Origin: Dehalococcoidia bacterium
GTDB taxonomy: Bacteria; Chloroflexota; Dehalococcoidia; SZUA-161; SpSt-899
Direction of reading: 5' to 3'
DNA: 48,404 nucleotides
NCBI GenBank assembly: GCA_028711995.1
Contig: JAQTRE010000008.1
Span: 1-48,404 of the forward strand
The position numbers and the translations under genes are program-made. Under the pieces are notes generated by a model, which was not told the origin of the DNA, did no database searches, and saw only the letters and a list, made by a program, of their open reading frames with translations. Positions 17,987-19,885 of the stretch are shown piece after piece. How positions within the stretch are numbered: position 1 is the first letter of the stretch; every line of letters starts with the position of its first letter.

Positions 17987-18016
17987 GGGACCTTTTGGAT
18001 GTTTAGATAATGATAT

Positions 18017-18105
18017 TGTCATTCCCGCGAAAGCGGGAATCCATATGACGAAGCCTGGATTCCCCCGTATCAAGTACGGGGCAGGCTTATCAAGTCCGGA
18101 ATGAC
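18017..18105. repeat. Palindromic intergenic repeat of the GTCATTCCCGCGAAAGCGGGAATCC type
   Basis: The left end reads GTCATTCCCGCGAAAGCGGG (an internal hairpin: TTCCCGC-GAAA-GCGGGAA). The right end is the inverted form TCCGGAATGAC. A second inner hairpin contains CCCCGTATCAAGTACGGGG. Elements of this kind are scattered through many bacterial genomes as small, transposase-less repeats. Between the convergent TIGR04076 and yajD genes it may also act as a bidirectional terminator. Confidence 0.75.
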
Positions 18106-18177
18106 GGACGTTCTAAAGCCGTTACTGAAACGCTACACCAGAACATCGGATAAGCGGTTGCGAGATTACACTGACAA

Positions 18178-18779: not shown

Positions 18780-19412
18780 ATGGCGACAGGTCGATATCTG
18801 GCAACCGTTCTGGCAATAACAGTTCTTGCCGTTATTGCGGGCATCTTCCTCTGGAACAGCGAGACTTCCCAGGTTCTCTCAGACGATGGCAATACAATAT
18901 GCGATGGATGGTGCCTTGGCCCCGAAGATGCCGCTCTAATTATTGAAACATTCCCGGACTTCACCTGACACATTTGTCGGGAAAAAGAGCAGTTTGCTCT
19001 GCAAGCCTTGGGAATGTACCCCGGACAGGTTCGGTTTGAATACCACCCCTATCCGTACTCCGATTTCGGACTCACGCTCGCCCAAGGACTTGAAGCAGCA
19101 GGTGAGCAAGGGAAGTTCTGGGAGATGCACAACCGGATGGTAGAGGATGCACCCGAGAACATGGCAGAGCTTGTGGCTGTAGCTGAAGCAGCAGGTTTGA
19201 ATACGGAGACGTTCACCGCAGCAATTGACAGCAGGAAATTTGCCGAGAAAGTCCGTGCCGCTAAGGAGTCGGCGGCAGGCAGAGGGGTTGGAGAGGTGGC
19301 GTTGTTTATCAACGGCAAGGAATATCAGAAGTCCCCGGGCACATTGGATGATCTGATTGGGGCCATCGAAGATGAACTGACAAAGACCAAACAGACAGAG
19401 GAAGTTCATTGA
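18780..19412 (+). CDS. DsbA-family thiol oxidoreductase, probable selenoprotein (in-frame TGA = Sec63)
   Basis: One frame runs from ATG 18780 to TGA 19410-19412 and is interrupted only by TGA at 18966-18968. Reading that codon as selenocysteine gives 210 residues: an N-terminal membrane anchor (ATVLAITVLAVIAGIFLW), then PDFT-U-HIC-REKEQFALQ. The TGA replaces the first Cys of the CxxC redox motif of the DsbA/thioredoxin_4 family. The rest is a normal DsbA-like helical insert (GKFWEMHNRMVEDAPEN) and C-terminal strand VALFINGKEY. A perfect hairpin just downstream (18986-19000) fits a bacterial SECIS. The cis-Pro usually found before the FING strand is Ala. The MauE/DoxX gene overlaps the end by 4 nt. 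The alternative is a single nonsense mutation. Confidence 0.8.
18966..19000 (+). promoter_or_regulatory. Putative bacterial SECIS (selenocysteine insertion) element
   Basis: TGA (18966-18968) is followed by a perfect 6-bp stem, AGAGCA (18986-18991) with TGCTCT (18995-19000), closed by the loop GTT. The first loop base G is the 24th base after the TGA. Known bacterial SECIS hairpins lie within the codons after UGA and have a G, often GU, at the top of the loop. In E. coli fdhF the key G-U is at positions 23-24. No bulged U like that of fdhF is evident. Confidence 0.7.
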
Positions 19413-19885
19413 GCCGCATTGCGCCCTTCCTCCAGAACCCCTATTTACACCTTTTCCTCCGTCTGTTCGTCGGCGGGACGTTCATGCTGTCGGCAATTTT
19501 CAAGTTTCCCCACCATACCGAGTTTGTGGATATTGTCAAAAGCTATGACCTTCTGCCCGATGCTCTGGCAGCAGCCTATGCCAATGCCCTCCCCTGGGTG
19601 GAGATTCTGGTGGGGTCATACCTGTTGCTGGGAGTACTGATCCGACCCGGCGCTGTGATTGCACTTCTGATGTGCGTCAGCTTCATGATCGCCAACATCA
19701 CCTCTCTGGTGAGGGGAGATGAACAATGCGGCAGCTGTTTTGGAGACGTGATTACACTCCCGGTCTGGCAAGCCATCGCCATAGACATTTTCCTCCTTAT
19801 TGCAGCCGTTGCGTTGCTGGCGGCCAGCGGCAGGTCATTACTTGCGCTGGATGACCTCCTCTTAAAAAGCGATAAACCCTCTTGA
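19409..19885 (+). CDS. MauE/DoxX-family redox-associated membrane protein
   Basis: A 158-residue protein with four membrane spans: HLFLRLFVGGTFMLSAIF, WVEILVGSYLLLGVLI, AVIALLMCVSFMIANI, and IAIDIFLLIAAVALLAA. A loop carries two cysteines in DEQCGSCFGD (C107, C110). MauE-like proteins pass or shuttle reducing equivalents for disulfide chemistry outside the membrane and often sit beside thioredoxin-fold partners. The TTG start overlaps the end of the DsbA-like gene by 4 nt, so translation is coupled. Together the two proteins probably form a membrane thiol/selenol relay. Confidence 0.82.
   Translation: MSRIAPFLQNPYLHLFLRLFVGGTFMLSAIFKFPHHTEFVDIVKSYDLLPDALAAAYANALPWVEILVGSYLLLGVLIRPGAVIALLMCVSFMIANITSLVRGDEQCGSCFGDVITLPVWQAIAIDIFLLIAAVALLAASGRSLLALDDLLLKSDKPS

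Follow-up and report, generated by a model that had tools for sequence, protein, structure and literature searches.

A probable selenocysteine-decoded DsbA-like oxidoreductase gene overlapping a MauE-type gene in a Dehalococcoidia bacterium

Introduction

Does the TGA codon at positions 18966-18968 of this Dehalococcoidia contig terminate a protein, mark a broken gene, or encode selenocysteine (Sec)? The codon interrupts a reading frame that was proposed, in a first-pass annotation, to encode an unannotated DsbA-like selenoprotein. The stretch of DNA analysed here (the window; 48,404 nucleotides) is contig C8 of a 3.3-Mb MAG with a completeness of 96%. Selenocysteine-containing DsbA-like and DsbG-like proteins with a U-x-x-C site have been described since 2005 (PMC1088965; PMC1794560), and reviews list Sec forms of both PF13462/NF041057 and PF01323 (PMC9312934; PMC13188914).

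Results

The gene begins at ATG 18780 and ends at the stop codon TGA 19410-19412 on the forward strand. Translation of the frame from 18780 to 19412 revealed a single internal stop, the TGA at residue 63 (context ...FPDFT(U)HICREKEQ...), and the proposal that the frame is otherwise free of lesions was upheld. Read as selenocysteine, this TGA occupies the first position of a U-H-I-C motif within a 210-residue DsbA-like protein possessing an N-terminal membrane-anchor helix. That both sides of the TGA belong to one protein was confirmed by a match of the read-through product to Pfam Thioredoxin_4 (PF13462; 6e-15), which extends over residues 45 to 197 with the TGA inside it and scores 56.2 bits against a curated cut-off of 23.2; the fold of the protein is also that of the family. 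A weaker match was obtained to DSBA (1e-7), and in the Pfam comparison the window protein preferred PF13462 over PF01323. An additional cysteine motif, C41-D-G-W-C45, lies past the anchor (18900-18914, forward strand).

Structure prediction of the read-through protein by AlphaFold drew on 32 window and locus proteins. The resulting model (mean pLDDT 90.7) has an N-terminal helix at residues 3 to 26 and places residue 63 immediately before a helix spanning residues 64 to 79, a DsbA-like arrangement. The top Foldseek matches were Corynebacterium diphtheriae TsdA/DsbA (7unn, 4pwp) and Bacillus subtilis BdbD (3eu3), and a sequence profile ranked the same structures first. These nearest solved structures differ from the window protein: they are Cys forms, share approximately 19-28% identity with it and retain the customary cis-proline loop (TP in the TsdA alignment).

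As predicted in the first-pass annotation, standard gene calling yields the C-terminal part alone: the mechanical open reading frame runs from TTG 19008 to 19412 and encodes 134 amino acids. Automatic annotation would miss the gene or cut it at the active site. An open reading frame on the opposite strand (18936-19409) is without an NCBIfam match and was regarded as a chance occurrence. Separately, the intergenic region at 18010-18110 contains a stretch with CATTCCCGCGAAAGCGGGAATCC and repeated words nearby, and resembles a dispersed repeat.

The genome to which the window belongs was searched for the selenocysteine machinery. Two tRNA-Sec genes with the anticodon TCA were found, together with SelA (564 bits), SelD (391 bits) and the C-terminal four fifths of SelB (model positions 112 to 580), the N-terminus of which is cut off by a contig end. 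The pathway is complete save for the start of SelB, a gap that was counted against the selenoprotein reading. The two tRNA-Sec genes (L001:1498-1592 and L002:1498-1593, on contigs C195 and C4) are nearly identical, the surrounding ~300 bp being 84% alike, and reflect either a real duplication or the presence of a second strain in the MAG. SelD itself (L017:1501-2418) has an in-frame TGA at its own Sec position, plus a hairpin. Two formate dehydrogenase alpha subunits (FdhA; L158 and L163, on contigs C125 and C159) carry a TGA within HCARLUHS.TV; strong hairpins come after it, their loop G lying 20 to 24 nt downstream. With SelD and both FdhA genes bearing Sec-type TGAs, this genome contains at least four apparent selenoprotein genes, the window gene included.

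Directly downstream of the window TGA lies a SECIS-like hairpin (18986-19000, forward strand) with a G in its small apical loop. It consists of the 5' stem AGAGCA (18986-18991), the loop GTT (18992-18994) and the 3' stem TGCTCT (18995-19000); a gap of 17 nt precedes the stem, and the G of the loop is 24 nt downstream of the TGA, exactly the geometry first reported. The accompanying suggestion of a close likeness to the fdhF SECIS held in part: in fdhF approximately 20 nt separate the UGA from the loop G, a spacing that resembles the present one without matching it exactly. The 3-nt loop and unbroken 6-bp stem were counted against the selenoprotein reading, and an Rfam search around the hairpin matched no model. 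When compared with synonymous-codon shuffles, the window hairpin taken singly gave only p = 0.017. The hairpins of nine among 13 Sec genes exceeded their shuffles at p < 0.05, and these 13 genes had stronger hairpins than 43 Cys genes (Mann-Whitney p = 9e-7, uncorrected for relatedness).

Relatives were sought in 400 genomes of the phylum and the 99 nearest relatives of the window's genome. Two close homologues were found and treated as orthologues. The first, from a different genus of the same family (G402; locus L052), shares 45% identity and has a TGA at the identical codon without any further lesion; its hairpin (AGAGC/AGTTG/GCTCT) is located at an equal distance from the TGA (p = 0.09 against synonymous shuffles, taken singly). 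The second, from another family of the same class (G162), shares 51% identity and encodes cysteine (TGT) at the Sec codon in one continuous frame. An in-frame UGA in the window gene therefore aligns with a cysteine in a homologue. The C41-D-G-W-C45 motif is retained in the Cys orthologue (CEGWC) and absent from the Sec orthologue (FEAWS). Divergence by codon position was coding-like on both flanks of the TGA, with the third position highest. A scan of genome contigs added only one locus to the subfamily (L078, on the same contig as the G162 gene).

Among more distant relatives, a further 11 DsbA-like loci possess an in-frame TGA, each at the first residue of C-x-x-C and with hairpins present. 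The placement originally noted for the window gene was accordingly reproduced in all 13 inspected TGA-bearing DsbA-like loci. One genus of the same class carries four DsbA-like genes in tandem (L066, G388 contig 28, matches at 740, 1528, 2487 and 3215; also L061 and L063); these Sec lipoprotein-like genes each have a TGA at the first C-x-x-C position, and the hairpins were strong where folded. Co-occurrence with SelA was assessed in 37 genomes. SelA was present in 14 of 16 genomes with a TGA-type DsbA (the two without it being 54% and 88% complete), and also in 17 of 21 chosen as Cys-type; this co-occurrence consequently does not discriminate between the two types.

Two explanations without selenocysteine were weighed against these data. 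The TGA might be a cysteine codon that has mutated or been misread, leaving a decaying gene or a faulty assembly. TGA is one base from TGC and TGT, the window derives from a MAG and a TGT-bearing Cys orthologue exists, all of which would suit such an origin. However, the codon is also TGA in an independent genome from another genus, no second lesion is present, both halves diverge as coding DNA, and the Sec pathway is complete apart from the SelB start. The recurrence of TGA at this exact residue in 11 other loci, together with the hairpin pattern, further disfavours decay or read error, and we regard this explanation as close to refuted and very improbable. Alternatively, the TGA could be a true stop, with TTG 19008 opening an independent gene and a split or truncated protein as the outcome. 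The mechanical open reading frame at 19008-19412 is compatible with this arrangement. Its product, however, would be without the fold's first strand and would not contain the active-site cysteine pair, whilst the structure model and the Pfam match both cross the TGA and the G162 orthologue forms a single continuous frame. A true stop with a start at 19008 was rejected along with the pseudogene explanation, and its probability appears very low. Those checks proposed in the first-pass annotation that were run favoured a selenoprotein. Given the Sec machinery in this bacterium and a relative with the same stop at the same catalytic position, we conclude that the gene is real and almost certainly not broken, and strongly infer the insertion of selenocysteine at residue 63.

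The selenoprotein gene is followed by a gene for a MauE/DoxX-type membrane protein (19409-19885, forward strand; MauE family PF07291, 81.1 bits against a cut-off of 27). The overlap of the two genes, already remarked upon in the first-pass annotation, was verified: the TTG start at 19409 overlaps the selenoprotein stop (TTGA). The MauE protein contains a C-G-S-C motif (19727-19738, forward strand), a candidate for redox partnership with U63/C66. Each of the three orthologous loci has, directly after the DsbA-like gene, one for a MauE protein with CGSC or CGDC. MauE was not found beside the other DsbA-like loci, most of which cover only 1.5-6 kb on each side. No methylamine dehydrogenase genes were identified next to the DsbA-like/MauE pair, and a literature search on MauE with selenoproteins or disulfides returned nothing on such a pairing.

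Alignment of 32 proteins revealed the absence of a hallmark of the thioredoxin fold. The cis-proline site, which faces the active site in Thioredoxin_4 and DsbA-like folds, is alanine in the window protein (V173-A174; 19296-19301, forward strand) and serine in both orthologues, and proline in the other 29. The window protein belongs to the known broad kind of DsbA/DsbG-like U-x-x-C selenoproteins and falls outside NF041057, the Rcas_1661 family of thioredoxin-like (seleno)lipoproteins (DsbG-like, PF13462). It shares with that family the Thioredoxin_4 domain, the U-x-x-C site at the corresponding position and the existence of Sec and Cys forms. In contrast to NF041057, its membrane anchor lacks a lipobox-type start, the cis-proline is missing and it is paired with MauE, and the three orthologues score 43.7 (window), 43.5 and 48.4 bits against an equivalog cut-off of 190. 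With DsbA-like selenoprotein form 1 (PF01323; known from the Sargasso Sea and later sets), the window protein shares the DsbA-type fold, U-x-x-C and a bacterial SECIS directly past the UGA (PMC1088965; PMC13188914), but it lies nearer to PF13462; this comparison was made without the individual Sargasso sequences. Because it belongs to a known broad kind yet scores 43.7 against 190 bits for NF041057, we assign the window protein to a small, divergent new subfamily, whose distinguishing features are the absent cis-proline and the pairing with MauE.

Discussion

The explanation that best accounts for these observations, and one that we hold with high confidence, is that the window encodes a genuine Sec-decoded, membrane-anchored DsbA-like oxidoreductase, coupled to a MauE gene and likely recycled by its product. 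SelB and tRNA-Sec would decode UGA 18966 under the direction of the adjoining downstream hairpin, and translation of the selenoprotein would be coupled to that of the overlapping MauE-type gene. The predicted product is a membrane-anchored thiol-disulfide oxidoreductase whose active site, U-x-x-C, would lie on the outer side of the cytoplasmic membrane. There the Sec/Cys pair would most likely exchange electrons with thiols or disulfides of its substrates.

MauE serves as the membrane partner of MauD, as VKOR or DsbB does for DsbA. By analogy, U-x-x-C would most likely be recycled through the MauE CGSC pair, and the simplest mechanism would be a relay from substrate to U-x-x-C to the MauE cysteine pair. 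Gene order in three loci suggests the partnership and makes MauE the likely partner. In each of the known systems the gene for an extracytoplasmic thioredoxin-fold thiol protein adjoins that for a small membrane protein carrying a pair of cysteines, and in Rhodococcus related DsbA genes overlap VKOR annotations in a comparable arrangement. Unlike in MauD/MauE or DsbA with VKOR/DsbB, the pair described here would combine a MauE/DoxX-type partner with a DsbA-like protein containing selenocysteine. We only infer the topology, the recycling by MauE, the direction of electron flow and the substrate.

A different role is conceivable, in which the selenoprotein is specialised for a metalloid (arsenic) instead of general thiol-disulfide exchange and its Sec/Cys pair, in the absence of a cis-proline, might bind or reduce that metalloid. 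The genomic surroundings of the two orthologues point in this direction. The Cys form of G162 (L167, contig 13) resides inside an arsenic operon (ArsR-ArsP-DUF169-ArsF-ArsG-FeS protein-DsbA-MauE-ACR3), and the Sec gene of G402 starts 34 bp downstream of an arsenite methyltransferase. Alanine or serine at the cis-proline site is confined to just these three of the 32 aligned proteins, and, according to a review of thioredoxin folds, CxxC may be kept from binding metal by the cis-proline (PMC2757866). Set against this, the near neighbours in the window encode an ABC transporter and one protein each of the HNH, zinc-finger and RRM types, with no arsenic genes among them; the arsenite methyltransferase genes of the same genome sit on other contigs; and there are three orthologues only. 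(An internal TAG in ArsM on contig C130 was considered and rejected, as it falls at the gene end.) Since no arsenic gene adjoins the pair in the window, the arsenic link of the subfamily is put forward tentatively, and we judge specialisation of the selenoprotein for arsenic to be unlikely. The wider proposal, that a subfamily without cis-proline and its MauE protein form a dedicated module that might bind or reduce arsenite or a similar metalloid and would not be a general disulfide catalyst, is similarly doubtful.

As a Sec-decoded, MauE-coupled oxidoreductase, the window protein adds a divergent lineage to the selenoproteins of Chloroflexota. It also offers a natural test of the role of selenocysteine in a DsbA-like site without cis-proline, for which the Cys orthologue, at approximately 50% identity, provides the control.
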